DNA of 64,000 nt from Marisa cornuarietis (taxonomy: Eukaryota > Mollusca > Gastropoda > Architaenioglossa > Ampullariidae). The stretch spans positions 3,206,501 to 3,270,500 of the forward strand of contig SMMW01000025.1 in assembly GCA_004794655.1 (NCBI GenBank), read 5' to 3'. How positions within the stretch are numbered: position 1 is the first letter of the stretch; the number at the start of each line of letters is the position of its first letter. The notes beneath the pieces were generated by a model. The model saw only the letters and a list, made by a program, of their open reading frames with translations, searched no databases and was not told the DNA's origin. Positions 5,843 to 56,800 of the stretch are shown in pieces. Both the position numbers and the translations under genes were made by a program.

Positions 5843-5845
5843 GGA

Positions 5846-7153
5846 ATGGCTGAATATAAAGACCTGGCAAAAATAGAGGAAAGGAAAGAGCTGAAGCAGA
5901 AGATCAACCAATGTCAAGACCAGCAGGAAAAAGAAGAACTCAGAGCAAAATACTTGGAGATAAACAGAGAAGTAAAAAAGAGCGCAAGAGATGACAAGAG
6001 GCAGTTCACACACAAGATGGCAGAAGAGGCAGAACAAGCAGCTGGGCAAAATAACACAAAGAGACTATACGAAATTACAAAAACTCTGGCAGGAAGAAAA
6101 CACACCAATGCGTGCAGATCAATAAAGGATAAGAATGGCAGCGCCATCACCGGAGATGCAGAACAAAGATCACGCTGGGTGGAACATTTTGATGAAATAC
6201 TTAACCGACCATCACCAACACCCACCTTGGACATTCCCCCAGCCGCCGAACAGCTTCAAGTAAACACCAGCCCACCAACCAAGGCAGAAATCATCAAAGC
6301 CGTCAAGTCCTTAAAGTCTGGCAAGGCGGCAGCCCCAGATGGCATTCCTGCAGAAGCACTAAAGGCAGATCCAACAGCCGCAGCAGAGATGTTGCACCCA
6401 CTGCTGAAGAAAATTTGGGAACAGGAACAAGTTCCAGCAGACTGGAAGCTTGGCTACCTAGTAAAGCTACCCAAAAAAGGCGACCTTACACAATGCAGCA
6501 ATTGGCGTGGGATTATGCTGTTGTCCACTCCTAGCAAGGTGCTGACCAGAATCATCCTGGAGAAACTAAAAAATGCCCTGGACAAGAGACTGCGGCAAGA
6601 ACAGGCAGGCTTTCGGCAGGGAAAATCATGCATAGACCAAATTGCTACACTACGAAATATTATTGAACAGTCCATTGAATGGCAGGCACCACTATACATA
6701 ACCTTTGTGGATTTTGAGAAAGCCTTTGACTCCGTAGACAGGGAAACCATCTGGAAACTGATGCAGCACTACGGATTTCCACCAAAGTTTATTGCCATCA
6801 TCCAACAGCTATATGAGGACTCGAAATGCCAGGTGATTCACAACGGAAAGCTGACTGACCCCTTCGCAGTGAGGACTGGAGTGAGGCAAGGTTGTATGCT
6901 CTCACCGACAATCTTCCTGATCCTCATAGACTGGATCTTGAGAAGAACAACCTCTAACAGTAACACGGGCATTCAGTGGACCTTCGCCAGGCAACTTGAA
7001 GACCTCGACTTTGCAGACGACATCAGCCTGCTGTCCCACAAACAACAACACGCACAAACAAAGCTCACTCGGCTCGCAGAAGAAGCAGCGATGACGGGCC
7101 TGACCATCAACATCAAGAAGACGGAAGTAATGCGGGTCAACAACAAGCAATAA
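5846..7153 (+). pseudogene. LINE reverse transcriptase domain
   Basis: An open segment of 435 codons holds all core RT blocks: GKAAAPDGIPAEALK, SNWRGIMLLSTPSKVL, EQAGFRQGKSCIDQI, FVDFEKAFDSVDRE (first catalytic Asp), GVRQGCMLSP and LDFADDISLL (catalytic DD pair). The catalytic residues are intact, but the segment ends in a stop at 7151-7153 and the conserved C-terminal region resumes in other frames. The first ten or so residues are in a frame unlike the upstream coding context, so the true element ORF reads through from the endonuclease region. Confidence 0.92.
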
Positions 7154-8376: not shown

Positions 8377-9480
8377 GACAAGACTGTAATGGATCCGTTC
8401 GCGCAATGGAATGTTTTGTTAAGTTTTACAACACCACTAACTCAGCTACTTCTATCCATACAAGCAAGAAAGGTACTATAAGAAATAAGGAAATATCATT
8501 AAGGTAAAGAGACAAATCGTGTTAATAAAATATATACAGCTATATGACATTGTATACATGCAAAACTTATCTTTACAAACTCTCTTGACGTCTGGATTGT
8601 AGGAATCTCTCAATAGAACATAACAACAATCTCTCCGTTCAAACTGTATACAAATTGATGCACTTTCAGATAATGAAAAAAATCCAAATAAATAAACAGT
8701 ACAATTTGACAACTAAACTAAGCGTAATGCACCCACTGAGCCAAGAATAATAATTTAAATAAGAAAGTTAAATAATCACGACCATGAGTCACATAACAGT
8801 AAGTACAAAACTATTAGGCGTCAAATCTCCATCCCCAGTAGTGTCGCCGCTATAAACAGCCCTAAGGAGAGACCAGGTTTGTGACAGTGAATTAAACGAC
8901 TTATTTGAAATTTGACAAGAAAAATAGATATATTATTCAACTGATTCTACTTTGATGTTTGTTTCTTAAACGCTTTAATACTCTTACTAACTGAGACTGT
9001 GATTGTGACATTAAATCCCTTCTGATTCAAAGTTCGTAAGTGAAAAAAATACTGAGCATAAATCATTTCATATATCATAACATAATATATCATAACCAAA
9101 ATGAAACATGCATAGCAAAATGAAGTCAGTGGTGTTCCTGAACTCAGTTGCACTTCTTCCTATGTGTAAGTGCGGAACTTCTTTCGATTTAGGAAAGAAG
9201 AGGGAAATGTGAGGCTGGCATGTGGTCCCATCCATCCTCTGGGTTCGCCCCTTCTCCATCCACCAACGCCCCGTCGCACTTCCCTCCTGGTTACTTCAAA
9301 TGCCCCTCGGATGCTGGGGTTTTCCTGTAATACATGTACAGTACTGAGAAACTCGCGTGGTGAAGTCAACCTACAAGCAGAGGAAAGGTGCCCTGCAAAT
9401 GTCTTCTATGAGAATGACATTTTTCCCTAAAATCATTCATCACTTTAAAACAAGGAGATTGTTGCTCCCCACCTCCATCC
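8377..9480. other. intergenic spacer
   Basis: About 1.1 kb, mostly AT-rich apart from a GC-richer patch at about 9170-9370. The open frames here are short and show no recognisable family motifs. I see nothing that supports a gene. Confidence 0.5.
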
Positions 9481-10031
9481 GTGACTGCGCCCTAGGTGAC
9501 TGCCTAGCTCGAATCCCAGACACTTAATCCCCGACACTTAATCCTCTAGACTTTTAATCCCCAGACACTTAATCCTCAAAATTAAATTTCAACTCAAAAA
9601 ATTATGAAGTGAATGAAAAATTTAATTCAAACTCAAATAATTATTTTCATGTAAACATCAAAATAAGTTTGACAATTAAAATAATACTTAACTTCAACAT
9701 CTATAACATTAGTTAAAGTTCATGTGAGCTATTAAAGTCAACGTTCTTCAACAATATGATATGAAAAGTGTTGTTAATCAATATGACAGGTAAGCTGATT
9801 GGAGGTACCCTAATTGGGACGATTGTTACGTCTTATTAGAGTTACCACGCGACACATTTCTCTTACGGTTATAATATTTCAAGTTCACAAAATAGCAGTT
9901 TTGAGTGTTGTGTCGCGATTTGGTGGCATTTTTGATGATTTAGTGTCTGGGGATTAAGTGTCGGGGATTAAATGTCTGGGGATTAAGTGTCCGGTCACCG
10001 CCTAGCTCACCTAATTGTAGAACCGGCCCTG
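9481..10031. mobile_element. hAT-like element remnant hosting a nested insertion
   Basis: The right edge, read on the minus strand, begins CAGGGCCGGTTCTACAATTA, which resembles hAT-type termini (CAGRGCCGG). Sequence on both sides of the 489-bp nested element (CCTAGGTGACTGCCTAGCTC on the left, CGCCTAGCTCACC on the right) reads as one interrupted unit. The left end is not resolved. Assignment rests on terminal motifs only. Confidence 0.45.
9511..9999. mobile_element. non-autonomous DNA element with inverted arrays of a GACACTTAATCCCC motif
   Basis: A 489-bp insert flanked by the 9-bp direct repeat GCCTAGCTC (9502-9510 and 10000-10008). Each end carries four head-to-tail copies of a 14-16-bp unit close to CAGACACTTAATCCCC: plus orientation at 9516-9576, inverted at about 9937-9993. 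The interior is AT-rich and non-coding. Arrays of a subterminal motif in inverted orientation are what transposase-binding ends look like, and a 9-bp duplication fits Mutator-like elements, but the superfamily is not proven. Confidence 0.7.
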
Positions 10032-10856
10032 TAGATAAGATATTGTTCTAAGAAAGAGGATGGTACCTTCACGTAGCAGTTGGTGTCGTTCACTGGATCA
10101 AGGATTCAGAGCCTTTTGTCTTCAACTGAAGAATATGTATAATTATGTGCACCTGGATAATACTTCGGTAGTATTTTGTGTGATTCTTGTGGAAATTATT
10201 TCTTTAAAAAAATGTTACAAATAAGTAACATTGAGATTATAAATTTACTACGCTCGATCAGATTACTGTTAAAAAAAAAATCCCGGTGAAGACCAAACAT
10301 GCACACAGGCGATTATCGAGAAAACAATTCCTGTTCCTATGACTTCGAACTCAAGACAGCTAAAAAAACTGGCTCTCAGCCCGGGCATCCTTCGCTACAG
10401 AAATACTATTTTTGATCTGGCTTGAGCTGTTTCAGGGGCGACTGGGGTCTCCTCCAGGTGCTTTAGAGATATTATAAAGGCTTTGAAAAGTGTCGGCCGC
10501 ATGCTACAGAAGACTGCGGTCATTGTCTTCGTTATCTGCTGCCTGCACGTACATTGCCACAGTCAGAACACAAATGGCGACACATAGAAACGGGATGTTT
10601 GGATGCAGTTGTGTGCACTCATGGGCATACTAGTTAGTGCCTAGATCAACATCTTTTAATGACGTCTTGCTCTGGGCATACAGTACAAATCTGCACTGGG
10701 GTTGAATGTGCCACGTTGCTAGGGACAGGTACAGTCAGTGATGTTTAGGGAGTGGGTTTGCTTGCCTACTGATCATTCGCTTTTTCTAAAAGGACTGCGG
10801 GGCAGCAAAATTTGCTTCAAATGATTAGGTAAAGTTCAGTGCAACATATTATTTTC

Positions 10857-11118
10857 ACAAATGTGGGCGAATACACCCCTTCAGTTATAGAGATACACGC
10901 CTACAAACATCAACATGCACAGAAAGAAGTCGAATTCGTGACGTGACGTTTGCACACAGACATACCTTATATAGTCCCACCTTTCACTGGCTGAGGCCTT
11001 TACAATGTACTTATCCATGTACAATCCTGGCATCTTTGTTGTTGATTTCTTGCTGTCAATAGAGATGTTTGTAGGCGTGTATCTTTATAACTGAAGGATA
11101 CTATTCACCCAAATTGTA
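10857..11118. mobile_element. MITE-like element with about 50-bp terminal inverted repeats (left arm)
   Basis: The ends read ACAAATGTGGGCGAATA... and, reversed, ACAATTTGGGTGAATAG..., both continuing into CCTTCAGTTATARAGATACA and then CGCCTACAAACATC. The interior is non-coding. A mirrored copy lies near the far end of the right arm, so insertion predates the duplication. I could not define a target duplication. Confidence 0.7.
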
Positions 11119-11123
11119 GGAAT

Positions 11124-11129
11124 TTTATT
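11124..11129 (-). terminator. candidate poly(A) signal, left fucosidase gene
   Basis: AATAAA on the minus strand about 340 bases beyond the fucosidase stop codon, mirrored at 24869-24874 in the right arm. Nearer signals were not seen, but usage is unproven. Confidence 0.4.
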
Positions 11130-11470
11130 TTTTTACCCAATCATTAGAAACCAATCTCCCTCCCCCCCCCCCACTGTAGTCATTTACGCTCTTCAGTCCT
11201 AAGTTGGTTAAATAAATGGCATGAGGCAACAGGCAAGTCAGTCTGTGGTGCGTGCATGCAACAGCGAACCATTAAATTAAAAAAAAAGTATAGTTGGTAT
11301 GCAATCATTGTATTAAAGCCTGACAACAATATTTCAAGTGTCCAAATGAATACATCATAATACATGAGAAAATTATGAGAACATGAATAATCAGGAAGAA
11401 AGAAACAAAACAATGAATTAGGGAATGCACAGGAACCTAAACAACTGATAGTTGAAGTACAAAAGTAAGT

Positions 11471-14400
11471 TCAACTGGTAGCTTCTGCAGCATTCTGTAG
11501 ATTGTCCAGTCGGAAGACCCAGGCCCACTGGCAAGGCATCTGCCCAATATTAAGCACTGGAAGCTGTATTTCTAAGCCTTGTCCCTCTCTTGAGCTCCAT
11601 GCGATTTCCCCCACATATCCAAGCAGCCTGACAGTGGTATCAGATGCTGGCTGTGGGGCTCCCAATAGTACTATGTCCTTGTCTGGCCACTCAAGCAATA
11701 TAGCATAGACACTGGTCACTCCACTGTTTTGCTTTTTAGAGGTGTACCTAGACAAAAGTAAAACAAAACATTTCTTCATAATTCTAATCAATGTGTTTTT
11801 TTAATTCATTGATTAGTCATGCCAGTAACCAACAAATTCATGTCATCAGGCATGAAGCTAGGTTTTCATGAAAAGAAAGCCTTAGGAATCATGAAAAGTA
11901 AAAACAAAGTCTTCAAAACATGAAGCTTTTTGCATCTCTCCCTGTTTGATGTAGACCTGTGGGCTGAGGAAGAAGAAAAAGTGTTCAAAATGTTTGTGTG
12001 TGTGGCATACACATTAAAAAGGACTGGAAGCAAGTAACTGATCTGGGGTTAACATGCTCAATCAAATGCCCCATACATTTTTTTTCTTTGGCAAGTCGCC
12101 ATTTACCTTAATTTATGCCTTTACAATGATATTTTGTGGAATTTCTGCTAGATGCATGATTAAATTCGCCCTGAAAATGTTTTCATAAATATTAGTCACT
12201 TAAAAGACAAAATATTTGTTGACAGGTAAAGGTTAACACTGCAAGTATTAAGATACATCTGTGGATCTCTGGATGTTTTGAGTTATCCTTTTAAAAACAT
12301 TATGTTGTTTCAAAAATATGTACCAGGCTTCCACCACACATTTTGCAACTAAGGCATCAGCTTTTTACTCACCATACACTTTCTGCTGTGGTATCATTCT
12401 GATAAAGCCATGGAATTGTTTCATAGATGGCATCACCATTCACAGTGAGCCACTGACCAACCTGCAGGAGTCTCTCTTCAAATATTGGAACAATAGTTCC
12501 ATATGCTGTAGGTCCGACATTAAGCAGCAAGTTTCCTCCACAACTATGGGTGCCACAAAGAACATGCAGTTTTAGGACTTCATTAATAACACACTAATAT
12601 TCCTGAAGACATTTTGACTATAATAGTCTAATAATGCTGAAAATCGCCATCTTGGGGTGTACTGTCTGAAAATTTACCTGGAGTCTGCTAAAAGTTCAAT
12701 GTCTATAACATGTTGGAGATAATATCCCATTCTGCTCTACAGATAGTCTGTTTTTGATTTGCAAGCTGTCCCACCACACCCCCACTAATCAGAAAAAATA
12801 GTACTTTCATCACAAGCTTAGTCAACATGAAAAATAGCTGCTAGCAAATCACTGGAAAATAAAATTCTGAGTATAATTACTAATAATTCTGTCAACACAT
12901 TGTAGTGCTGCATGTACTGAATATGCATAGTCTTTCAAAGCCCTATTCACTAAAAAAAAAAAAGATAAAATCACTCAGACCTGAATGCAAAATAACAGTA
13001 AAACATTTTATACACACCTTATGATGATTGCATTGCAATTTCCTGTGATTTTACTCAATTACACTGTTTTTATGTCACTGGTATGATATTGCTTTTATAA
13101 GAAAAGTACACGCACCTTACTGTCTGCACTAGAGTGGTGATTAGCTCTTCAATGGAATGCACATCAGCCAGATGTAGATCATATCTAAACTCCCATGCTA
13201 AGCGGTCAACTGTTGTTGCATCTTCCCATTTCCGCTTCTGCAAAGTTTCTGACAGTAAAGATCCATGTGGGTTATTTACTGAATGTACCCCAGTGCTCAT
13301 AAGATTATTTTAATTATTTCATATATTTAAATTGTATTTTTTACTATTTTGATAAAGGTACGTTTTTCCTTTTGTGGATAGTGCCTGCATTCCAAGAACA
13401 AACAGGAACACAGATTTTTTCATCACACCTATCAAATCTTCTTTCAGTGGTAATCAGGATATCCACATCATGTATTTGATGCATTAGAATTTAAAATCTG
13501 AAATGCCGCTCACTTGGGTTATAGTGATCAGAGCAGGTAAAAAAGCCACCATGCCTGCAAATAGTGTCACTTCCCCAACGGTCGTTAGTAACAACTGTAT
13601 CCCTCACAGGACTGGGTTGAAAACAAATATAACACAAGAATTTGTTATTCAGGTACAAAACCAGCTAATCTCATACACATTTGCAAGGCAGCGTCTCAAA
13701 CATGCTGCCTTCTTTCTAAAATAAATAACTCATAACAGGCCAGTAATACAATAACTTCATGATCATAAGTCACAAACAGCACTATTTTGGCAGGTAATCT
13801 GTTGTGGTTCTCATCTGAACTTCATTAACCTTTATTTTGCACCTAAATTACAATCATTGCAGCATAATCTAGGATGTGTACACAGGACAAACAGTTGTGC
13901 AAATATGGTTCTCAAAGGAGAAAATTTTCCCCGCTTTGACATGTAAGTAGGGAAGTCTCTCAATTCACCTGTCATTGTATAGCCAGGCCAGGAAATTGGT
14001 GGAATTCCAATAGCTTGAACTGGCTTCCCAATCACCATCTGACCAGATTACATCTGGCTTGTAGCTGTTCACTAATTCAAACAATTCTGGCATAGTTTTT
14101 CGCTAAAAAGAAATATCACAAATATTATATATAATTTACTAAATTACCAAATTGGCAACTTACTACAAAGCAAATTATCTTAAAATTTCATGTAATAGTA
14201 AATAATATTTCTTTTAACAAATAAAATTATTACACACAACAATATCCCAGTTTTTAATATATCAGTTATGAAAAGCATTCTTTATAATTTGTAGGTACAA
14301 AGAAAAGGTGGTCCTGTAACGTTTGGATACCTGGGAAGTAAGATATTAGAGACTACACTTTTCTCAGATGCCCAGCTTCCTTCCTTCCCTGTCTTACCTT

Positions 14401-17208
14401 CCCCAACCCTCTACTGTCAGGTACCCAATCCAAACAGATGGGTCAACTGGGGGAAGTTTGCTGTGGGTTTCAACTGAACTGAAGGAATATGTAAGAATTT
14501 ATTTATGTAGATACATATTTGTTATAAAGATAATGTGAGCAATTACATGTGACCAGTATCTGCTGCTATTTCTGCTGAGAAACAAAACTTGGTTTAACAA
14601 TAACTGAAATCTAAGCGTACCTAGAAAAACAGAGAAGTCTGTCCCATTATCAGTATCTGACCAAATGAAAAGGATATGTATTTTCATCTGAAATATGTTT
14701 CATAAAGTGGTAACATGCTAATTAAGTTTCATGCAAGAAGGGTGGGATGCTTGATTAATTCCAGAATTCCTTATTGTAGGTATAAGGTTTTTCTTTAATG
14801 AAATCATATGACTTTTTGCTAGTTCAAACACAGCACATTTACTGCAACAAAATCATTGGTGGTGAAGCCATTCGCTTTGTCCCTCAAGTACAGTGGATTA
14901 AAGAACTCAAACAGTGAGTGATATGTTCCAAATCTGAGGTCAGTCCTGGAGCGAATGGCATTTGCTAGTTCCCCTGTCAAAAAGAAAAAAAAATTAAACA
15001 TGCTATGAGGTAGAGGCAGCGTATGCTGTTCTTACATGTTTATGAATATGAATATTTAATATTAAGAATGTTAATTCCTGCATTCAGTCTTCCATATCAT
15101 ACAATTATGCAGAGCTATTTGAATGCATATTGTAGCGGAAGCGCTAGGCAGCTTGTACCGCTGACGGTGCTTTCCCCCTTCTATCCTGCACCCCCTTCCA
15201 CCCTACGCTTGGTCGCGCGAGCGGAGCATCGCGAGGCAGACAGCACAATGGGTGACGTAGCACCCAGCTACTTCGGTATAAATACCAGAGAAAAGTCAGT
15301 CTCTGGACCTGATTGTCGAAAGACGACTGGTCAGTACAAGAGAGGTACCTGTTTGCCGAAAGGCGACTGGACCAGGCTGAAAAGCACTCTTGTCACCCAG
15401 CCCCCTCTTTCCCCCCACCCAAGGGAGTTAGGTGTTTATAGGATTTAGCTAGGTAGGTTAGTTAGAATAGGAATAATAGCAGCTGTAGGTGTAAATTATG
15501 TAAATCAATCTATGTCTTTGAACTTACTTTTTTGTGTAAGTGTCTTAGTCCGTATGCTAGCGTGAGGTATGTGTCCTCGTCGTGTGAACGAGATGAATGA
15601 GTATCAATAGAGAAAAAGAAATCGTGTCGTCCATTGTAATTGTGTCGAGCAGCAGAACACACACGAAAATCAACGAGCTGAGAGATTCACCGCAGAGAAC
15701 ACACTTTTGGTTTAGAGAAAAGCAGGGTCTTTTGTGGACTCCAAGGTCGGCTGAGTGCGGGTGCAGTAGATGGGAAAAAAAAAGAACACAACGCGAGGCA
15801 GTATATGAAATACGCACCCGACTAACGAGAGCCAGAACTTAAGAAAGAAAGTTCTCCTTGGTAACTAACGTCTTCTCCCCTGGGACAAGAAAGAGGAACG
15901 GACTGACTTATGGCGCTAGGGCCGTGTAGGTGTAGCGACCGTCAGCCCGGTTACAATATTTTAAAAAAATGTTTGATTATCTTACCAACAAGATCTCTCT
16001 TTGGCCCGACATCCATAGAGTTCCAGTTCCATGAGTATTTTGATGGCCAGTTACAAAAACCTTCGTGGTGCTTTGTAGTCAGCACCACATACCTTAAAAA
16101 ACAGAAGGGAAAAAAAGCTAATTAAATGTGGCATAACAAATTATGCATTTAATATAAATAGGTTTGATCATATATCAATATTCATAAGAATTGATTTGAC
16201 ACTGAAAATTGTTTATTATAAAATAATTCATAAAACAATATTTTAACAAGTAGAATAGGTCTATATCCATGCATATACATATATACATACAGTATGCATT
16301 TATACATATAATTAAACTCGGCTGTTAGGGTGCCTATAAATATTTCATTGCCTGATATTCACTGTAGTCTGTAGTGGCATAATAAGTAAAGAAGATGTTC
16401 AGCTTTGGGAGAGGGGAATAAAGTCCATGCTGACAGTGAACAATGTTGCCATCTTAGCATCTTTTTGAGGGGGCGTCTGCCCCTCAGCTGCTTCCTATGC
16501 CATTGTTGTGAGTTTGACCACAGGAAGTTTAAGTGTGGACCAGTTTCATCTTCAGTTCAGGTGCCTATTATTTCACTTTCAAGCTGCATACAGGAATCTA
16601 AATATCTATATGAAGACATCACACATTCCATTATTTATCAATACTCTTGAACCAGTTTCATAAGCAATTGCATCTGGAAAAACTCTGTGTGTGTGTGTGT
16701 GTGCAGGCGCGCGAGTGTGTGTTGTGTTTTAAGAGAGACAAATGGCAAACCTTTATATATTTTCGAGGGTAACACAGAGGGAGAGAGAGAAATTAAATAG
16801 ATCTAGAAAAAGAGAAAAAGACGAGAATGGGAGGGAAAGCGTAAATTACTTGGCTCCCGATGCTTGGAATATGTCTGCCCATCTATTTGCATCAAAAAAC
16901 TCCGTTGTAAACTGAGGTGCAAAGTCAGCATAGGTGAAGCCTGGCGGATAGTTCTGTTCCATGAATGTCACAATACTGGGCATCGGTTTGGGCCCTTTCC
17001 ACCAGTACCAAAACCACGCGCCGACGTAGCCGGGAACCGAAAAGACGCCCCAGTGAAGGAATATTCCAAACTTTGATTTGTCGTACCATTGTGGCAACGG
17101 TCTTGCATCTAGTGATTCCCATGTGGGATCATAGCGTGCCTCTCCTTGTCCGCACAGAACAATCAGCAAAATGCAAGAAGCACTGATCAGTGGCAGAAGA
17201 GCACTCAT
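11471..17208 (-). CDS. FUCA: alpha-L-fucosidase (GH29), eight exons, intact copy
   Basis: Lysosomal or secreted glycoside hydrolase that removes alpha-L-fucose from glycans. Coding exons on the minus strand, from the start: 17208-16850, 16092-15986, 14973-14843, 14102-13969, 13611-13514, 13248-13116, 12543-12373, 11747-11471. All introns are GT-AG and phases agree, giving 469 residues, the normal family length. Residues 1-24 form a signal peptide ([20 protein letters not shown]). Family motifs follow: [35 protein letters not shown] (built across the exon 1/2 junction), [10 protein letters not shown] with the Asp that is the nucleophile in GH29, [20 protein letters not shown] and LLLNVGPT. The C-terminal beta domain is exon 8. 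The gene is one half of a palindrome; its partner at 17962-24535 is broken. The exact paralogue (FUCA1 or FUCA2 type) is not decided. Confidence 0.96.
15131..15955. mobile_element. TGTA...TACA element, solo-LTR-like, in fucosidase intron 2 (left arm)
   Basis: An 825-bp unit beginning TGTAGCGG and ending GGTTACA, flanked by ATAT on both sides (15127-15130 and 15956-15959). It has a TATA-like GGTATAAATA at about 15276 and no coding capacity, which fits a solo LTR. The two ends also share imperfect inverted similarity (TGTARC and a shared GCTGACGGT block), so a non-autonomous DNA transposon is an alternative. The mirrored right-arm copy occupies the same intron position, so this insertion predates the duplication. 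Confidence 0.7.
16684..16722. repeat. (GT)n microsatellite in fucosidase intron 1, left arm
   Basis: Short GT run followed by GCGCGCGAGTGTGTG. It is mirrored by a longer AC run at about 18056-18098 in the right arm; the length difference is one of the small arm-to-arm changes. Confidence 0.85.
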
Positions 17209-17256
17209 TTTCGTGTTGTAATCCCTAACACTTTTTTTTTTTTTTTATCGAGTCAG

Positions 17257-17264
17257 TATATATA
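17257..17264 (-). promoter_or_regulatory. TATA box of left fucosidase gene
   Basis: TATATATA lies about 50 bases upstream of the minus-strand ATG at 17208. A poly-A/T tract separates the two. The same element appears mirrored at 17878-17885. Position and sequence suit a core promoter; the start site is not observed. Confidence 0.55.
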
Positions 17265-17329
17265 GATTGTGAAGGTCAAGGTGTTGTCGAAATTGATAGT
17301 CGAGCAGACAGTCTTACTGGCCTGGGAGC

Positions 17330-17812
17330 CTGGTCAGAAATAGGAACAATTTATGCAGCCCGCCTGATCGTACCAGCTGAAATTTGAAAGCAGACTGGTG
17401 GAAAAAAGTCACACGATTGTTCTTTTTTCGCACGCCCAGTTAGATCACCGTTGAAATTTGCAGGAGATTACGACCAGACATTAGAATGATCAACGTGTAT
17501 TCCTACAAAATTAAAAGACATGTATGGTTCACGTGAAGATATATAACTATAGTGATACCTGCGTCCTAATGCGATGGAATGTACTTGAGAAGCAAGTGTT
17601 TTAACCACTACACGACCGGGTGCCCCATCGGCTGGGAGGAATTGATTTTCGCTGTGGGGCGCAAAGGATGGTGACCATTTGCCCTATCCCTCTAGAGCCG
17701 AATAAAAATACCCTTTGAAAAATGACGTTAATCGTTGTCTGATAGGTGCAACACCAAAGAGAGTCTGGCGTTAATTGCATGAAAACTCATAAAAAAACAA
17801 GTACATTCCATC
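17330..17812. other. spacer between palindrome arms, with tRNA-like SINE remnant
   Basis: Sequence of 483 bp that is not shared between arms, except that 17571-17587 is the exact reverse complement of 17798-17814. On the minus strand 17640-17560 reads GGGGCACCCGGTCGTGTAGT then GGTTAAAACACTTGCTTC, which looks like the head of a tRNA-derived SINE, although box A fits poorly. The spacer holds no ORF of note. Confidence 0.6.
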
Positions 17813-17877
17813 GCTCCCAGGCCAGTAAGAGTGTCTGCTCGACTATTAAATTCGACAACACCTTGACCTACACAATC

Positions 17878-17885
17878 TATATATA
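17878..17885 (+). promoter_or_regulatory. TATA box, right fucosidase copy
   Basis: TATATATA mirrored from 17257-17264. The distance to the ATG at 17962 is about 30 bases longer than in the left copy because of a short arm-specific insertion. Whether it still drives transcription of the broken copy is unknown. Confidence 0.45.
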
Positions 17886-18827
17886 CTGACTCTATTAAAA
17901 AAAAAAAAGTGTTAGGGCGTACACGCATCAGGTGAACAGAGCAGTGAATTACAACACGAAAATGAGTGCTCTTCTGCCACTGATCAGTGCTTCTTGCATC
18001 TGTGTTACCCTCGTAAACATATAAAGGTTTACCATTTGTCTCTCTTAAAACACAACACACACTCGCGCGCCTGCACACACACACACACACACACACAGAG
18101 TTTTTCCAGATGCAATTGGTTATAAAACTGGTTCAAGAGTATTGATAAATAATGGAATGTGTGATGTCTTCATATAGATATTTAGATTCCTGTATGCAGC
18201 TTGAAAGTGAAATAATAAGCAACTGAGCTAAAGATAAAACTGGTCTACACATAAACTTCCTGTGGTCAAACACAACAATGGCATAGGAAGCAGTGGAGGG
18301 GCAGACGCCCCCTCAAAAAGATGCCTAGATGGCAACATTGTTCACTGTCAGCATGGACTTTATTCCCCTCTCCCAAAGCTTAACATCTTCTTTACTTATT
18401 ATGCCACTACAGACTACAGTGAATATCAGGCAATGAAATATTTATAAGCACCCTAACAGCCGAGTTTAATTATATGTATAAATGCATACTGTATGTATAT
18501 ATGTATATGCATGGATATAGACCTATATTCTACTTGTTAAAATATTGTTTTATGAATTATTTTATAATAAACAATTTTCAGTGTCAAATCAATTCTGATG
18601 AATATTGATATATGATCAAACCTATTTATATTAAATGCATAATTTGTTATGCCACATTTAATTAGCTTTTTTTCCCTTCTGTTTTTTAAGGTATGTGGTG
18701 CTGACTACAAAGCACCACGAAGGTTTTTGTAACTGGCCATCAAAATACTCATGGAACTGGAACTCTATGGATGTCGGGCCAAAGAGAGATCTTGTTGGTA
18801 AGATAATCAAACATTTTTTAAAAATAT

Positions 18828-20875
18828 TGTAACCGGACTGACGGTCGCTACTCCTACACTGCCCTAGCGATATAAATAAGTCCGTTCCTCTTTCTTGTCC
18901 CAGGGGAGAGGACGTTATAGTTACATAGGAGAACTTTCTAAAGTTCTGGCTCTCGTTAGTCGGGTGCGTATCTCATATACTGCCTCGCGTTGTGTTCTTT
19001 TTTTTCCCATCTACTGCACCCGCACTCAGCCGACCTTGGAGTCCACAAAAGACCCTGCTTTTCTCTAAACCAAAAGTGTGTTCTCTGCGGTGTATCTCTC
19101 AGCTCGTTGATCTTCGTGTGTATTCTGCTGCTCGACACAATTACAATGGACGACAAGATTTCTTTCTCTCTATACTGATTCTCATTCATCTCGTTCACAC
19201 GACGAGGACACATACCTCACGCTAGCATACGGACTAAGACACTTACACAAAAAAGTAAGTTCAAAGACATAGATTTATTTACATAATTTACACCTACAGC
19301 TGCTATTATTCCTATTCTAATTAACCTACTTAGCTAAATCCTAACTCCCTTGGGTGGGGGGAAAGAGGGGGCTGGGTGACAAGAGTGCTTTTCAGCCTGG
19401 TCCAGTCGCCTTTCGGCAAACAGGTACATCTCTTGTACTGACCAGACGTCTTTCGACAATCAGGTCCAGAGACGTTGTTTGTTGTTGTTGGCTTTGAAAG
19501 GGAAAGTGCTTCCACCTCTCGGTGATTTCGCACTGTGGGGGATGGGGTCTTTGGGGAGTGTGGGGAAAGGGTTGCTGTTTTGTGGTGCCTGATGCGTGGT
19601 TTCACTTCTGTGCGTGCCCTCTATTTTTGTGGGTGTTTAGGTTTTCCAAGTCTGCATGGGTGGTGTATTGTATTTGTGCCCTCTTCATCCATTATTGGTC
19701 TGCCAAGTTTGCATGAGTCGTTACAGTGCTGCTGCCCTCTTTCCTCCTGCTGCTGCTGGTGCCGTTTGTTGCCAGTGTTTAGGGGTCCTGCCACGTGTAC
19801 CGTGGTGGTGTATTGTGTTTCTTTGTTTGGTTCCATGTATTGCTCTTCCTCAATTTTTTTTTTTTAATTTTTTTTTCCAGTGTGGATGGCTATGTTGTCC
19901 TGTTTACCCCTATTCTTATTTTATATTAGACTAGAGTTTGGGTGGCTTGTTGCTATAACTACTACTAGTGACAGTATACTGTTCCATAGTTCTTTAGGTG
20001 GGTTGAGGCAGTTTCTGAGGTTTAGTCCCAGCCTATACTTATCTAGGAAATGTTTTAGTTCTTCTCTCTCTGGTTTATTTTCATTGCATTCCAACAGTAC
20101 ATGCGGGGTGCTAAGTCTGTCCCCACAGGCACATGAAGGTGGGTCTTTATACATTTTATAATATTCTCCACTAAGCCTCATTCTGGTTATTTTAGTTTGG
20201 TCCGACCTGATTGATGTTAGGTACATCAAGGTGAGACTAGGCTGGTCGTCTATCAGTCTTCTAGTACCTATACCTTCATTTTTGTATTTTTCTTGCCACC
20301 TTATTTTTATTGCTGGTTTTATAGCTATTTTTCTCTCTGCTGGTGAAATAGAGATGTTTAGGGTGGTGACTTTAGGGTTATTTTCTTGTTTTACTGCCAG
20401 TTTAGCTAGTTTATCTGCCTCTTCATTTCCTTTTATTCCTATGTGGGAAGGAACCCAAAAGAACTTAATGTCTCCCTGTTTCTGGTTGATTTTCTTTATG
20501 ATGGACAGTACCTTGTATACTATATCTATTCTGTTTGAGGATTTGTTTTTTAAAGCCTGAAGTGCTGACAGTGAATCTGAAATTACTACATATTGTTGTT
20601 GCGTTGTGTCCTTCATTCCGAGATGAAGTGTATGGAGAGCTGTCAGTATGGCCGTCAACTCAGCTGTAAAAATTGAAGTGTGTTTTGGGAGTCTGCTGGA
20701 GACTGACTTTTCTCTGGTATTTATACCGAAGTAGCTGGGTGCTACGTCACCCATTGTGCTGTCTGCCTCGCGATGCTCCGCTCGCGCGACCAAGCGTAGG
20801 GTGGAAGGGGGTGCAGGATAGAAGGGGGAAAGCACCGTCAGCGGTACAATTAAGCTGCCTAGCGCTCCCGCTACA
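18828..20875. mobile_element. TGTA...TACA solo-LTR-like element with nested LINE (right arm)
   Basis: Mirror of the element at 15131-15955, with ATAT flanks at 18824-18827 and 20876-20879. It measures 2048 bp instead of 825 because a LINE of 1225 bp is inserted at 19474-20698. The outer portions match the left-arm copy closely. Confidence 0.75.
19474..20698 (-). mobile_element. 5'-truncated LINE with RNase H domain, nested in right-arm element
   Basis: Minus-strand insert flanked by GAGAC (19469-19473 and 20699-20703), with a CAA-repeat tail at its 3' end near 19474-19495. It is absent from the mirrored site in the left arm. The coding part runs from about 20697 down to 19921 in one open frame that is fused in the computed translation to upstream LTR-like sequence. 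It holds the C-terminal half of an RNase H domain (FTAELTAILTAL, VVISDSLSAL, WVPSHIGIKGNEEADKLAKL) and then a CACGDRLSTPHVLLEC motif typical of LINE C-termini. The clade is one of those with RNase H after RT, such as I or Jockey groups. Confidence 0.88.
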
Positions 20876-23800
20876 ATATGCATTCAAATAGCTCTGCATA
20901 ATTGTCTGATATGGAAGGCTGAATGCAGGAATTAACATTCTTAATATTAAATATTCATATTCATAAACCTGTAAGAACAGCATACGCTGCCTCTACCTCA
21001 TATCAGCATGTTTAATTTTTTTTTTCTTTTTGACAGGGGAACTAGCAAATGCCATTCGCTCCAGGACTGACCTCAGATTTGGAACATATCACTCACTGTT
21101 TGAGTTCTTTAATCCACTGTACTTGAGGGACAAAGCGAATGGCTTCACCACCAATGATTTTGTTGCAGTAAATGTGCTTGTGTTTGAACTAGCAAAAAGT
21201 CATATGATTTCATTAAAGAAAAACCTTATACCTACAATAAGGAATTCTGGAATTAATCAAGCATCCCACCCTTCTTGTATGAAACTTAATTAGCATGTTA
21301 CCACTTTATGAAACATATTTCAGATGAAAATACATATCCTTTTCATTTGGTCAGATACTGATAATGGGACAGACTTCTCTGTTTTTCTAGGTACGCTTAG
21401 ATTTCAGTTATTGTTAAACCAAGTTTTGTTTCTCAGCAGAAATAGCAGCAGATACTGGTCACATGTAATTGCTCACATTATCTTTATAACAAATATGTAT
21501 GTACATAAATAAATTCTTACATATTCCTTCAGCTCAGTTGAAACCCACAGCAAACTTCCCCCAGTTGACCCATCTGTTTGGATTGGGTACCTGACAGTAG
21601 AGGGTTGGGGAAGGTAAGACAGGGAAGGAAGGAAGCTGGGCATCTGAGAAAAGTGTAGTCTCTAATATCTTACTTCCCAGGTATCCAAACGTTACAGAAC
21701 CACCTTTTCTTTGTACCTACAAATTAAAAAGAATGCTTTTCATAACTGATATGTTAAAAACTGGGATATTGTTGTGTGTAATAATTTTATTTGTTAAAAG
21801 AAATATTATTTACTATTACATGAAATTTTAAGATAATTTGCTTTGTAGTAAGTTGCCAATTTGGTAATTTAGTAAATTATATATAATATTTGTGATATTT
21901 CTTTTTAGCGAAAAACTATGCCAGAATTGTTTGAATTAGTGAACAGCTACAAGCCAGATGTAATCTGGTCAGATGGTGATTGGGAAGCCAGTTCAAGCTA
22001 TTGGAATTCCACCAATTTCCTGGCCTGGCTGTACAATGACAGGTGAATTGAGAGACTTCCCTACTTACATGTTCCATAAGTGGGGAAAATTTTCTTCTTT
22101 GAGAACCATATTTGCACAACTTTTTGTCCTGTGTACACATCCTAGATTATGCTGCCATGTTTGTAATTTAGGTGCAAAATAAAGGTTAATGAAGTTCAGA
22201 TGAGAACCACAACAGATTACCTGCCAAAATAGTGCTGTTTGTGACTTATGATCATGAAGTTATTGTATTACTGGCCTGTTATGAGTTATTTATTTTAGAA
22301 AGAAGGCAGTATGTTTGAGATGCTTCCTTGCAAATGTGTAAGAAATTAGCTGGTTTTGTACCTGAATAACAAATTCTTGTGTTATATTTGTTTTCAACCC
22401 AGTCCTGTGAGGGAAACAGTTGTTACTAATGACCGTTGGGGAAGTGACACTATTTGCAGGCATGGTGGCTTTTTTACCTGCTCTGATCACTATAACCCAA
22501 GTGAGCGGCATTTCAGATTTTAAATTCTAATGCATCAAATACATGATGTGAATATCCTGATTACCACTGAAAGAAGATTTGATAGGTGTGATGAAAAAAT
22601 CTGTGTTCCTGTTTTTTCTTGGAATGCAGGCACTATCCACAAAAGGAAAAACATACCGTTATCAAAATAGTAAAAACTGCAATTTAAATATATGAAATAA
22701 TTAAAATAATCTTATGAGCACTGGGGCACATTCAGTAAATAACCCACATGGATCTTTACTGTCAGAAACTTTGCAGAAGCGGAAATGGGAAGATGCAACA
22801 ACAGTTAGCATGGGAGTTTAGATATGATCTACATCTGGCTGATGTGCATTCCATTGAAGAGCTAATCACCACTCTAGTGCAGACAGTAAGGTGTGTGTAC
22901 TTTTGTTATAAAAGCAATATCATACCAGTGACATAAAAACAGTGTTATTGAGTAAAATCACAGGAAATTGCAATGCAATCATCACAAGGTGTATACAAAA
23001 TGTTTTAGTGTTATTTTGCATTCAGGTCTGAGTGATTTTATCATTTTTTTTTAGTGAATAGGGCTTTGAAAGACTATGCATATTCAGCACATGCAGCACT
23101 GAAATGTGTTGATAGAATTATTAGTAATAATACTCAGAATTTTATTTTCCAGTGATTTGCTAGCAGCTATTTTTCATGTTGACTAGCGTGTGATGAAAGT
23201 ACTATCTTTTCTGACTAGTTGAGGATGTGGCGGGACAGCTTGCAAATCAAAGACAGACTATCTGTAGAGCAGAATGGGATATTATCTCCAACATGTTATA
23301 GACATTGAACTTTTAGCAGACTCCAGGTAAATTTTCAAACAGTACACCCCAAGATGGCGATTTTCAGCATTATTAGACTATTATAGTCAAAATGTCTTCA
23401 GGAATATTAGTGTTTTATTAATGAAGTCCTAAAACTGCATGTTCTTTGTGGCACCCACAGTTGTGGAGGAAACTTGCTGCTTAATGTCGGACCTACAGCA
23501 TATGGAACTATTGTTCCAATATTTGAAGAGAGACTCCTGCAGGTTGGTCAGTGGCTCACTGTGAATGGTGATGCCATCTATGGAACAATTCCATGGCTTT
23601 ATCAGAATGATACCACAGCAGAAAGTGTATGGTGAGTGAAAAGCTGATGCCTTAGTTGCAAAATGTGTGGTGGAAGCCTGGTACATATTTTTGAAACAAC
23701 ATAATGTTCTTAAAAGGATAACTCAAAACATCCATAGATCCACAGATGTATCTTAATACTTGCAGTGTTAACCTTTACCTGTCAACAAATATTTTGTCTT

Positions 23801-24882
23801 TTAAGTGACTAATATTTATGAAAACATTTTCAGGGCGCATTTAATCATGCATCTAGCAGAAATTCCACAAAATATCATTGTAAAGGCATAAATTAAGGTA
23901 AATGGGGACTTGCCAAAGAAAAAAAATGTATGGGGCATTTGATTGAGCATGTTAACCCCAGATCAGTTACTTGCTTCCAGTCCTTTTTAATGTGTATGCC
24001 ACACACACAAAAATTTTGAACACTTTTTCTTCTTCCTCAGCCCACAGGTCTACACCAAACAGGGAGATATGCAAAAAGCTTTATGTTTTGAAGACTTTTT
24101 TTTTTTACTTTTCATGATTCCTAAGGCTTTCTTTTCATGAAAACCTAGCTTCATGCCTGATGACATGAATTTGTTGGTTACTGGCATGACTAATCAATGA
24201 ATTAAAAAAACACATTGATTAGAATTATGAAGAAATGTTTTGTTTTACTTTTGTCTAGGTACACCTCTAAAAAGCAAAACAGTGGAGTGACCAGTGTCTA
24301 TGCTATATTGCTTGAGTGGCCAGACAAGGACATAGTACTATTGGGAGCCCCACAGCCAGCATCTGATACCACTGTCAGGCTGCTTGGATATGTGGGGGAA
24401 ATCGCATGGAGCTCAAGAGAGGGACAAGGCTTAGAAATACAGCTTCCAGTGCTTAATATTGGGCAGATGCCTTGCCAGTGGGCCTGGGTCTTCCGACTGG
24501 ACAATCTACAGAATGCTGCAGAAGCTACCAGTTGAACTTACTTTTGTACTTCAACTATCAGTTGTTTAGGTTCCTGTGCATTCCCTAATTCATTGTTTTG
24601 TTTCTTTCTTCCTGATTATTCATGTTCTCATAATTTTCTCATGTATTATGATGTATTCATTTGGACACTTGAAATATTGTTGTCAGGCTTTAATACATTG
24701 CATACCAACTATACTTTTTTTTTAATTTAATGGTTCGCTGTTGCATGCACGCACCACAGACTGACTTGCCTGTTGCCTCATGCCATTTATTTAACCAACT
24801 TAGGACTGAAGAGCGTAAATGACTACAGTGGGGGGGGGGGAGATTGGTTTCTAATGATTGGGTAAAAAAATAAAATTCCTAC

Positions 24883-25145
24883 AATTTGGGTGAATAGTAT
24901 CCTTCAGTTATAAAGATACACGCCTACAAACATCTCTATTGACAGCAAGAAATCAACAACAAAGATGCCAGGATTGTACATGGATAAGTACATTGTAAAG
25001 GCCTCAGCCAGTGAAAGGTGGGACTATATAAGGTATGTCTGTGTGCAAACGTCACGTCACGAATTCGACTTCTTTCTGTGCATGTTGATGTTTGTAGGCG
25101 TGTATCTCTATAACTGAAGGGGTGTATTCACCCACATTTGTGAAA
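24883..25145. mobile_element. MITE-like element with terminal inverted repeats (right arm)
   Basis: Mirror copy of the element at 10857-11118, with the same terminal sequences TTCAGTTATARAGATACACG. Edges are approximate. Confidence 0.65.
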
Positions 25146-25710
25146 ATAATATGTTGCACTGAACTTTACCTAATCATTTGAAGCAAATTTTGCTGCCCCG
25201 CAGTCCTTTTAGAAAAAGCGAATGATCAGTAGGCAAGCAAACCCACTCCCTAAACATCACTGACTGTACCTGTCCCTAGCAACGTGGCACATTCAACCCC
25301 AGTGCAGATTTGTACTGTATGCCCTGAGCAAGACGTCATTAAAAGATGTTGATCTACGCACTAACTAGTATGCCCATGAGTGCACACAACTGCATCCAAA
25401 CATCCCGTTTCTATGTGTCGCCATTTGTGTTCTGACTGTGGCAATGTACGTGCAGGCAGCAGATAACGAAGACAATGACCGCAGTCTTCTGTAGCATGCG
25501 GCCGACACTTTTCAAAGCCTTTATCTTTAAAGCACATGGAGGGGACCTCGGTCGCCTGTGAAACAGCTCAGCCAGATCAAAAATAGTATTTCTGTAGCGA
25601 AGGATGCACGGGTTGAGAGCCAGTTTTTTTTAGCTGTCTTGAGTTCGAAGTCAGGAGCAGGAATTGTTTTCTCGATAATCGCCTGTGTGCATGTTTGGTC
25701 TTCACCGGGA

Positions 25711-26590
25711 GTGTTCTAGTCAGTAATATTATAACTCCAACCTTAAATTATGAAAACAAAACATATCTACTGACATGCAGCCACTTACTTAACAGGGAAA
25801 CACTAAGAAAACAACATTCTGTCTCCCGTGGCGTAAAAACGAAACAAGCGCGAGAATAATGTAACTCCTGCTCTAAAGATCTCTTTTCGCTCAAGACAGG
25901 AAAGTTACTTCCGTCAAATTGTAAACAGAACGGATTTTTTTTTTTTTATAACCTATCCGTCTGGTATTAACATGTACGTATTTGAGACAGATGTTTGGAA
26001 CTGGTTGAAATGAATAAGATATTCAACAGCATGGGCTGTAAAAGCGCTTAGTGAACAGATATTGCTTAATTAAAAGTTATTTCTTTCGTTAGAATTTATT
26101 GTTGGTTTTGTTTTCACCTGACTCGGTTATGACTCATTTTGACTGAAAGCTTCTTGTTCTTAATAGTCAAAATATTTTTATACTTTCTGGGGAATAGGTA
26201 GTATTATCGTTTATGTTTATTTATTATACTGTTATGGATACTACATTCAAGACAAGTTGATGTAGCAAAAGGACATAGTCGAGAGCATACCAGGTTTATC
26301 ATGTAGGTTACTTAATTGTGCGTCTATAAAAACGCACAAATACAAAAATATTGCTCGTTTTATTTTAAGTATAATTGATGATGGATATATGTTTGTTGCA
26401 TAGCTATAACTTACAATTGGGACTGTGGTTTTACTGCCATATGGATGAAGAGATCATTCATTAATTGTTGCATGCGCTTGCCATTAATTACATCCACAAA
26501 ACAGACAAACATAATAATGACTTTGAATAGACAATAGCATTGTAGATCTAACAACAAATCACTTGAAAAGAGACAAAATTACTTATCTTT
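25711..26590. other. intergenic spacer right of palindrome
   Basis: AT-rich sequence with no recognisable gene or transposon. The palindrome similarity stops abruptly at 25710. Confidence 0.5.
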
Positions 26591-53800: not shown

Positions 53801-56800
53801 ATGAGACTAGGCTTACAGTCCCTCAGGGACAACAGGGAGAAGTCCAACCTAATTGGACTAGACGCCCTTCGATCAGTGTTGCCTCCTCAAGACACCCCAG
53901 CACTCCCACATGTAAATTTGGGGTGACACTGCAGAACCACAGGTCCCAGTGGGAGACTTTTCGGACCTCAGACCCCTGGATCTCTGCAGTGATAAGCAAA
54001 GGATTGAGAATGTCATTCATAGACAGACCTCCTTACATGTGGTCACTAGTTTGGGTGCCACGAGACAGAGAAAAAGCGATGTCTCTGTGAAGCGAAATTG
54101 ATTTACTGCTTCAGAAGAAAGCTATGCAGGAAGTGGAGAGGACGGATCTGCCAGCCTTCTACTTCATCCTGTTCCTGGTTCCAAAGCCAGGAGGACGTTG
54201 GAGCCGATCTCAGCAGGATCAACTCCTTTCTCCATCCTCCTTGCTTCGCTATGGAAACTGGCAAAGCAGTGAGAGCGACGATCGCAGTAGAAGAGTTTGC
54301 AGCCAGCATAGATTTGGCAGACGTCTATCTGCATGTGCCGATGCACCCGTCAGTGGCCCCTTTTCGGTGTTTTGTTTTCAAAGGTAGACTGTTACAATTT
54401 GTGGTGATGCCGTTTGGTTTGTGCCTGGCACCTTGGGTGCTTACCCAGTTCTTCATTGATTCCGGATGCAGGCACAGATGGCAGTGTCCGCCTATCTGGA
54501 CGATTTACTGCTCCATGGCCCAGACAGTCAGAGGGTGAATTTTCTGATGACTCTACTGACGGAGTTGGGGTGGATTATCCACCCAGACAAATCAGAGTTG
54601 GTGCCAAAACAAGATTTTGTCCACCTGGGCATAAGATTCCAAACACAGCTCAATCAGGTCTCCCTACTAGAGGCACAACGGAGACCTTTCCAGGCCATGG
54701 TCAGCCTGTTTCTGAATCAGACAACTGTTCAGCCCGAGAGTGGCTATGCCTTTTGGTCCTGCTGAATGCAGCAGCTGATCTGCTGCCCATGGGACAGATG
54801 AGCATGCGACCTCTTCAGATAGCCTTTCTGGCATGCTGGAAACCAGCTATGGGTTGGCTAGGGACGGAGGCCAAGATAACCTGTCCGCTTGGAACGACAA
54901 CACATGGTTAGCCACAGGTGTTCCCCTCAAAGAGCCGTCACCAGAGTATTTCCTTGTGCACAGATGCCAGCCGGTTCGGCTGGGTGGGGAGGCTCATCTG
55001 GTTCCTGGCTTCTGGATACAGCAGGGACAGTGGTCAGAGGAAGAGCAGTCTCAACACATCAATGTCCTGGAGCTATTGGCAGTGTGGAGGGCACTACAGG
55101 CTTAGAGGAACACACTGCAAGGGAAAGGGGTAATAGTGCTGACAATTCAGCAGCAGTGACCTTACGCCGACAGGGGGACACCTTCACTCCCCGGACCTGT
55201 GCCTCCTTGTGTGGAAGTTGCTTTGATGGTACCATGAGCTCACCATCTCATTGAAGGCTCGATCGATTCCAGGGCAACTCAATGTCATTGCAGATGCCTT
55301 AAGCAGGAAGGGACAGATTATTTACTCAGAGTGGTCCCTGCATTCAGACATCTTTCTACACATATGTCAAGTGTTCTTTCGCCCCAGTTCTTGATCCGCT
55401 GGCTTGGGCGATGGATGCCTTGTCCCTGAATTGGGAGAGACTGAGCACTTATGTCTTTCCTCCACCAGTCCTTCTGTCCAAAGTCTTGGTGAAGATCAAG
55501 GGAGCCAATGTCAGTATCCTCCTAGTGGCATCTCTAAACTGGAATCGGTCCTGGAGTTCTGTTGGTAGCTCTGTCAACAGTGGTACTGCAGAAGCTACCA
55601 TCTGAAGGCTACTGAAACAGCCACACAGTCAGATCTTTCATCCGGCGCCAGAAACCCACAACCTTCACGCTTGGGTGTTCTCACATGAAGCAGTGGCACG
55701 CATCGCTACTGCTAGAAGGCCCTCCCCTTTAAAGGTTTATGAAGGTAAGTGGAGAGTTTTTCAGGATCAGGCAGAGACTGAATCTTAAAGATGTCCCCGG
55801 CAAAGTGGGTGGATTTTTTCTGTGGCTCTTTATGCAAAATCCCTGGTGTCGATTACCATCAAAGGTTATAGAGCTATGCTTTCTGATACCTTCAGGCATT
55901 TAGGCTTTTGGGTGTGGGGTCCAATAGGAATATTTCTACTTTAGCGGTAAATTTGTCATTGGCTTGCATTGTAACTCATTCCCTTTTTCCCTCGTGGAAT
56001 TTGTGCTGGGTACTGACCTTCTTGAACTTTGCGGCATTTGAACCTTTATCTAGGGCCTCCTTTAAGCTCTTAACATGGAAAACCTGCTTTTCAGTTGTTG
56101 TGGCCTCTGCGTCGAGAGTTTCAGAGATTCATGCACTCTCCTCAGACCCCTCTTGTTTACAGTTTCGGGAGGGATGGTTCGGTATCGCTTCTGACCCATC
56201 CGGGGTTTGTAGCTAAGAATAGACTCCCAGCACAGGGACCACAGGAAGTTACCCCTCCTCCTCTACCGAGACTTCGGGACCCAGTTAGAGCCTTAAGGAT
56301 CTATCTCAAGAAATCAACACCTCACAGGAAGGGGCAGTTGTGGCTGTTCTTGCCTGTAAGAGAAGGTAAGGCAGATATTTCAGCACAATCAATAGTGGCT
56401 TGGAGCAAGGCAATGATTAAAGCTTCCTATGTAGCACTGTCCCTGACAGCAGCATCCCTTATCCCTACCAGAACACATGAAGTTCAAGCAGTTGCTACAA
56501 CCTTAGCCTTCCTGAGCACTAAAACATATAATTCAGGCAATAGGATTGTGTTCTAATTCAACATTCCCCAGGTTCTGTCTTTGGGACTTTGCACCCCATA
56601 CTGACTCCTTAAATGCAATTGGCATTGTCTCAGTAGCACAGCCTGTGGCAGGCACGAGCGCATGCTTGGCCACACCGAAGGCAGCCTTAATTTGGATTAG
56701 TGCAGTCAAGGCTGCCTCTCACTCTACAGCCCGGGTGGATTTTGGGGTATGTTATTTGTTTGTTTCACCTAGAGCATCACTAACTTTTGCATGGGGGAAG

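Follow-up and report, generated by a model that had tools for sequence, protein, structure and literature searches.

The window, a 64-kb stretch of the genome of the ampullariid snail Marisa cornuarietis (C145:3206501-3270500; the assembly has 534 Mb and 572 contigs, which all genome searches described here cover), as assembled contains a large palindrome. Each of its arms carries a copy of an alpha-L-fucosidase gene, and the two copies are arranged head to head around a short loop. The copy in the left arm is intact, the copy in the right arm is broken, and the locus is one gene plus one duplicated pseudogene. We consider it very probable that the palindrome arose by inverted segmental duplication around the loop and that one of the copies died later.

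Palindrome geometry and the two fucosidase copies

Comparison of the window with itself by BLAST yields three inverted pairs: 10281-15303/20699-25710 (97.6% identity), 15299-16778/17999-19473 (95.2%) and 17171-17329/17813-17999 (79.9%). At this level, 10281-17329 is mirrored by 17813-25710 around a 483-bp spacer, which confirms the arm lengths, sharp outer edges and spacer given by the original prediction, a reading of the letters of the window alone. That reading had proposed a self-comparison and an arm alignment as a check; both were run and place the palindrome at the predicted coordinates, with 135 differences at 6612 aligned sites (98.0% identity overall). The locus shows the two long, very similar inverted arms and the short spacer by which palindromes are defined. 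Within a 264-kb interval, made up of the window and 100 kb to its left and right, no longer pair of repeats of whatever type was found, and no second inverted pair with a length of 1 kb or more reaches 90% identity.

The outer edge is also visible in a genome search with 9996-15130, in which the right-arm match begins at query base 286, corresponding to window position 10281. The left flank (9996-10280) has no match elsewhere in the genome among the best 40 of 1597 candidates scored. No third copy was found: among the same best 40 of 1597, 9996-15130 hits, apart from its own position, the right arm, a single piece of 86 bases and sequences related to a fold-back repeat, and nothing further, and in the genome search 17171-17999 matches only itself, its own mirror and short repeats. 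The interval 15957-17170 was searched against the genome as protein only.

The centre can be placed more precisely. Positions 17572-17587 are the reverse complement of 17798-17813, a match of 16 bp that is flush with the right arm, as compared to 11 bp for the longest flush inverted match in 5000 shuffles. The loop is therefore 210 bp long, not 483 bp. On the simplest reading the copied block extended to 17587, and the right arm is then 243 bp short, this stretch having been lost during copying or later.

10281..17587, minus strand: left arm (refined, 7307 bp), placed by self-BLAST and the 16-bp flush match; carries the intact fucosidase gene
17798..25710, plus strand: right arm (refined, 7913 bp), placed by self-BLAST and the 16-bp flush match; carries the pseudogene
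17588..17797, no strand: loop, 210 bp (refined from 483 bp), placed by the flush match
17330..17572, minus strand: left-arm stretch without right-arm counterpart, 243 bp; the junction shares 2 bp, GC
17586-17627: fragment (~40 bp) of a dispersed repeat at the left end of the loop, matching 26 other places in the genome

The dispersed-repeat fragment looks like the head of a tRNA-derived short interspersed element (SINE), a label given by eye after viewing five of its genomic contexts. ARAGORN in bacterial mode found no tRNA, and Rfam found nothing at gathering score in 9400-26500.

The gene in the left arm is a predicted model whose exon borders were placed by hand.

11471..17208, minus strand: GH29 alpha-L-fucosidase gene, 8 exons, 469 amino acids plus stop, all introns GT-AG
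16850-17208, 15986-16092, 14843-14973, 13969-14102, minus strand: exons 1-4
13514-13611, 13116-13248, 12373-12543, 11471-11747, minus strand: exons 5-8

The predicted protein matches Pfam PF01120 (434 bits) and PF16757 (96 bits), and its residues 20-460 align to the tissue alpha-L-fucosidase chain 7pls_A with 597 bits. It is thus full length and has both the catalytic PF01120 and the C-terminal PF16757 domain, as expected of a GH29 enzyme. Of the two copies only the left one would encode the enzyme, which is assigned to the GH29 fucosidases by homology.

The right copy is organized in the same way and carries two lesions.

17962..24535, plus strand: fucosidase pseudogene; exon-1 remnant of ~37 bp without donor, splice sites of exons 2-8 kept
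16779..17170, minus strand: exon-1 and intron-1 sequence without right-arm counterpart, ~392 bp; the junction shares 1 bp

Exon 1, 359 bp long in the left copy, is short of ~321 bp here and has lost its donor; the start codon is kept, and the frame that begins there hits a stop after 20 codons. In exon 6, a deletion of 8 bp causes a frameshift, beyond which stops abound. When the genome was searched with the protein in six frames, the later exons were matched in both arms but exon 1 in the left arm only. The right copy has retained its introns and lost its frame, which is the hallmark of a duplicated pseudogene. The original prediction of two fucosidase genes is thus not upheld, the two-gene reading being ruled out by the exon-1 loss and the exon-6 frameshift; its statement that whole genes are mirrored holds for the introns and fails for exon 1, most of which the right copy lacks. 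That both copies are functional, the right one by means of an alternative first exon, is extremely improbable: the splice sites of exons 2-8 and (by eye) a TATA-like promoter stretch are retained in the right copy, but the frame after the 8-bp deletion is full of stops and the right arm has no second match to exon 1.

The right copy has ~30 extra bases directly upstream of the start codon (17917-17950), likely in the 5' untranslated region. At residue 248 the left copy has D and the right copy E, and 120 homologues have D (117), E (2) or N (1). Residue 362 (left E, right G) cannot be polarised, since the 120 homologues have S (30), A (30), G (30), K (18), E (10), R (1) and N (1).

Among the named proteins in a list of 120 matches, the fucosidases of Nucella, Littorina, Batillaria and Babylonia are closest to the left protein, with 70-71% identity. 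Four longer proteins (Pinctada, Oppiella, Holotrichia) score higher in bits at 48-62% identity, and two other proteins in the list reach 73 and 75% identity. Further fucosidase genes of Marisa were located by exon-1 matches in the six-frame genome search: five matches on contig C211 (one of them on the opposite strand), two on C393 and one on C530. The sole protein named as Pomacea canaliculata among the 120 listed matches, P0085, is 60% identical and matches exons of two of the C211 genes (L020, L021) at 75-92%. By contrast, GEMIN6, a neighbor of the palindrome, is 93% identical between the two snails, and P. canaliculata may have lost this fucosidase or its gene may have escaped annotation.

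Transposable elements and the order of events

The arms hold several transposable elements, by which the events at the locus can be put in order. They include a solo insertion resembling a long terminal repeat (LTR), the tail of a long interspersed element (LINE) and a repeat resembling a miniature inverted-repeat transposable element (MITE).

15131..15955, plus strand: solo-LTR-like insertion, 825 bp, in intron 2, left arm; TG...CA ends, ATAT on both flanks
18828..20875, minus strand: right-arm counterpart of this insertion; identical flanking bases, split by the LINE
19474..20698, minus strand: tail of a 5'-truncated non-LTR retrotransposon (LINE), 1225 bp; right arm only
10799..11166, no strand: fold-back (MITE-like) repeat, within both arms; many dispersed relatives

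The introns are common to both arms, as is the LTR-like insertion within one of them, which points to inverted segmental duplication and not to retrocopying, as had been proposed from the letters alone. A retrocopy was considered as a candidate and is ruled out because the introns are mirrored.

The insertion has the features of a solo LTR, namely TG...CA ends, a target-site duplication and a dispersed family that shares those ends: 16 other places in the genome match an 826-base query unbroken from base 1 to 825/826 (among the best 40 of 674 candidates). It is most likely older than the duplication, since it is present with identical flanks in both arms and relatives elsewhere match it over its full length. 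When the two arms were compared with six relatives, omitting gap columns, 26 sites differed, of which 13 were assigned to a change in the left arm and 12 to one in the right arm, with one unpolarised; at another 16 sites both arms are alike and the relatives are different. The similar numbers of changes indicate that both arms have aged equally since they parted. In another part of the genome, two LTR-like copies lie ~3.4 kb apart in the same direction (G000:C4:1162664-1166759) and may represent both termini of one longer element.

The LINE tail contains an RNase H frame (RNase_H PF00075), the sole coding portion present, and a CAA-rich end, and GTCTC is found on both flanks. Besides itself it matches 37 places at 99-100% identity, two at 97% and one over 41 bases (among the best 40 of 1557 candidates). 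Its insertion appears very recent because at least 37 other copies are 99-100% identical. These copies of the last 1.2 kb point to a LINE family that may have been active very recently.

Taken together, one fucosidase gene that already had the LTR-like insertion in intron 2 would have been copied in inverted orientation beside itself, which would give the head-to-head pair. Fold-back template switching at the repeat fragment by the loop would be a fitting copying step. Both arms would then have drifted at equal rates, as the LTR-like insertion shows for itself, and a portion of the arms was probably homogenised, most likely via arm-to-arm gene conversion. The right copy was perhaps selected for a while before it was broken by the small deletions in exon 1 and exon 6. 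The exon-1 and exon-6 lesions are confined to the right copy, and the two right-arm losses have short junction homologies (1 bp and 2 bp). The recent LINE insertion into the right arm would be the last step.

Further repeats are found outside the arms. A small element at 9512-9994 has short tandem arrays with a unit of ~15 bp at both ends, in inverted orientation. A reverse transcriptase (RVT_1) remnant is located at 5843-7153 (121.9 bits), and a weak RVT_1 match at 54050-54538 (23.7 bits) is under the curated cut-off of 29.6. Upstream on the same contig, at window coordinates -90467 to -87176 of C145, there is a 1.65-kb direct tandem duplication with 99.8% identity.

Divergence between the arms and alternative explanations

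The arms differ at 81 of 3426 intron sites (2.4%), at 24 of 811 sites in the LTR-like insertion, at 13 of 1174 in the 3' flank and at 4 of 1080 in the coding sequence. The 5' flank differs at 13 of 121 sites, a value that is inflated by the alignment around the ~30-base insertion; it is counted in the non-coding total and is given no weight. These differences are unevenly distributed, and one stretch is nearly free of them.

10689..11773, no strand: stretch almost free of differences; a single mismatch over 1077 aligned sites, 8 gap columns

In this stretch 774 sites (10689 to 11470) are non-coding. Beside it, differences are seen at 12 of 400 sites towards the outer edge and at 118 of 4332 non-coding sites towards the centre. 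The longest clean non-coding run extends over 751 sites, compared to a mean maximum of 224 in shuffled data, and none of 2000 shuffles reaches 751. Moreover, non-coding differences are clumped, with a dispersion of 3.0 and a shuffle mean of 0.98 (0 of 2000 shuffles reach 3.0). Such stretches of identity are unexplained by uniform divergence, as is expected for gene conversion, and mixed alleles would look alike. Thus, 10689-11773 is likely an arm-to-arm gene-conversion tract. The original prediction had named arm-to-arm conversion among the usual links of large palindromes; the bounded tract of ~1.1 kb fits conversion and is equally compatible with mixed alleles.

The low coding divergence suggests past selection. 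If the right copy had been neutral throughout, 12.8 coding differences would be expected at half the intron rate, and four are seen (P 0.004). That the right copy was under selection for some time before its death is suggestive only.

Several observations weigh against this reconstruction. The palindrome is known here from the assembly alone, so that a mis-assembly is possible. The nearly identical stretch holds its 8 gap columns, and the shuffles assume a single mutation rate across the non-coding sites. Without exon 8, which lies inside this stretch, coding differences amount to 4 of 766 sites, and neutrality from the start then has a P of 0.053. Synonymous differences (2 seen, 5.5 expected at the intron rate; P 0.09) are not significantly few.

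Possible, and clearly less probable than the account given above, is that the duplication is real but the right arm came from, or recombined with, a diverged allele. This would be a variant of the same explanation and its odds overlap with it; the 2.4% intron divergence and its patchiness would largely be older allelic variation, and the duplication would be younger than the divergence suggests. The clumping of differences (dispersion 3.0 versus 0.98) and the few exon differences are consistent with such an origin, as is a heterozygosity of 1-2% described for Pomacea canaliculata (PMC6129957). However, divergence between paralogues combined with gene conversion yields the same pattern, and the two separate lesions and the later LINE require some time.

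An assembly artefact, in which a single locus would be present as both of its haplotypes with one attached in inverted orientation, is improbable. The intron divergence of 2.4% is close to the heterozygosity of 1-2% described for P. canaliculata, a likely relative (PMC6129957). Exons are much less divergent than introns, as in alleles, and in the searched parts no separate second haplotype was found. The artefact would however require two false joins, at either end of the inverted piece, with almost no overlap (0-2 bp). Assemblers join through long overlaps. Furthermore, the sequences that follow beyond the two outer edges differ from each other, and the right copy would have to be a null allele damaged at two distinct sites.

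On a chimera made from two unrelated loci the evidence is mixed, and the Batillaria gene tags make it less likely. The left flank contains TMEM26 and the right flank GEMIN6, the latter 93% identical to its Pomacea canaliculata counterpart. In Batillaria the tags of the two genes are three apart (TMEM26 BaRGS_009649, GEMIN6 BaRGS_009646). In Littorina (104 Mb) and Babylonia (75 Mb) both flank genes are on equal-sized contigs, probably one chromosome, which is weak evidence against a chimera; in Nucella they are on contigs that differ in size. The closest Littorina fucosidase is on the 104-Mb contig, and the closest Babylonia fucosidase (P0009) is on a different contig from TMEM26 and GEMIN6. 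On the basis of these gene neighborhoods the two flanks may belong together, but they do not place the fucosidase between the flank genes in other snails. Flank-gene synteny has no bearing on the haplotype artefact.

RNA from the palindrome, known systems and meaning

The original prediction also held that antisense RNA reading through from one promoter could pair with the other gene. This idea fails on the head-to-head divergent geometry: opposite-strand RNA that starts upstream of one promoter reads the other arm in sense and hence pairs with neither message. For fold-back, transcription would have to begin within an arm or beyond it and proceed inward across the centre. The left LTR-like insertion has a TATA motif from 15277 that is directed at the palindrome centre; in the right arm the insertion is interrupted by the LINE ~20 bases past this motif. 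A retroelement-driven natural RNA interference locus, in which the LTR TATA motif (15277) would start a hairpin RNA that gives rise to small RNAs against the fucosidase, is highly unlikely. If it were true, the LTR-started RNA would be antisense over the intact exons 2 and 1, continue across the loop and enter the pseudogene in sense orientation.

Duplicated (unprocessed) pseudogenes keep their introns and lose their frame through deletions in one copy. The snail locus is the same in essentials, while its mirror-image arrangement is less usual. The nearest described case among those considered, the C. elegans hsp16-48 locus, is an inverted repeat whose modules are 416 unique bp apart and is named among cases with evidence of conversion (PMC3966223). 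It resembles the snail palindrome in that two gene modules are inverted around a short unique loop; unlike it, the snail palindrome has one dead copy and arms of 7.3 and 7.9 kb. Mammalian sex-chromosome palindromes reportedly retain more than 99% identity through frequent conversion (PMC8981503) and contain testis genes (PMC8981503, PMC6790999, PMC5997626, PMC9122934). The snail locus shares with them large gene-bearing inverted arms and signs of conversion, but its arms are 98.0% identical, below the 99% of the mammalian palindromes, and have one clear tract. A literature search found no paper on an inverted duplication or palindrome with gene conversion in molluscs.

Overall, the locus exemplifies duplication followed by loss clearly, though in a rather ordinary form. 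It shows that a mirrored gene is not to be counted as a second gene until its frame has been checked. For one mollusc palindrome the order of events can be read, in relative terms only, from LTR-like insertion, duplication and likely conversion to gene death and LINE insertion. If the palindrome is polymorphic among individuals, arm conversion and the birth of a pseudogene would be traceable in a population.

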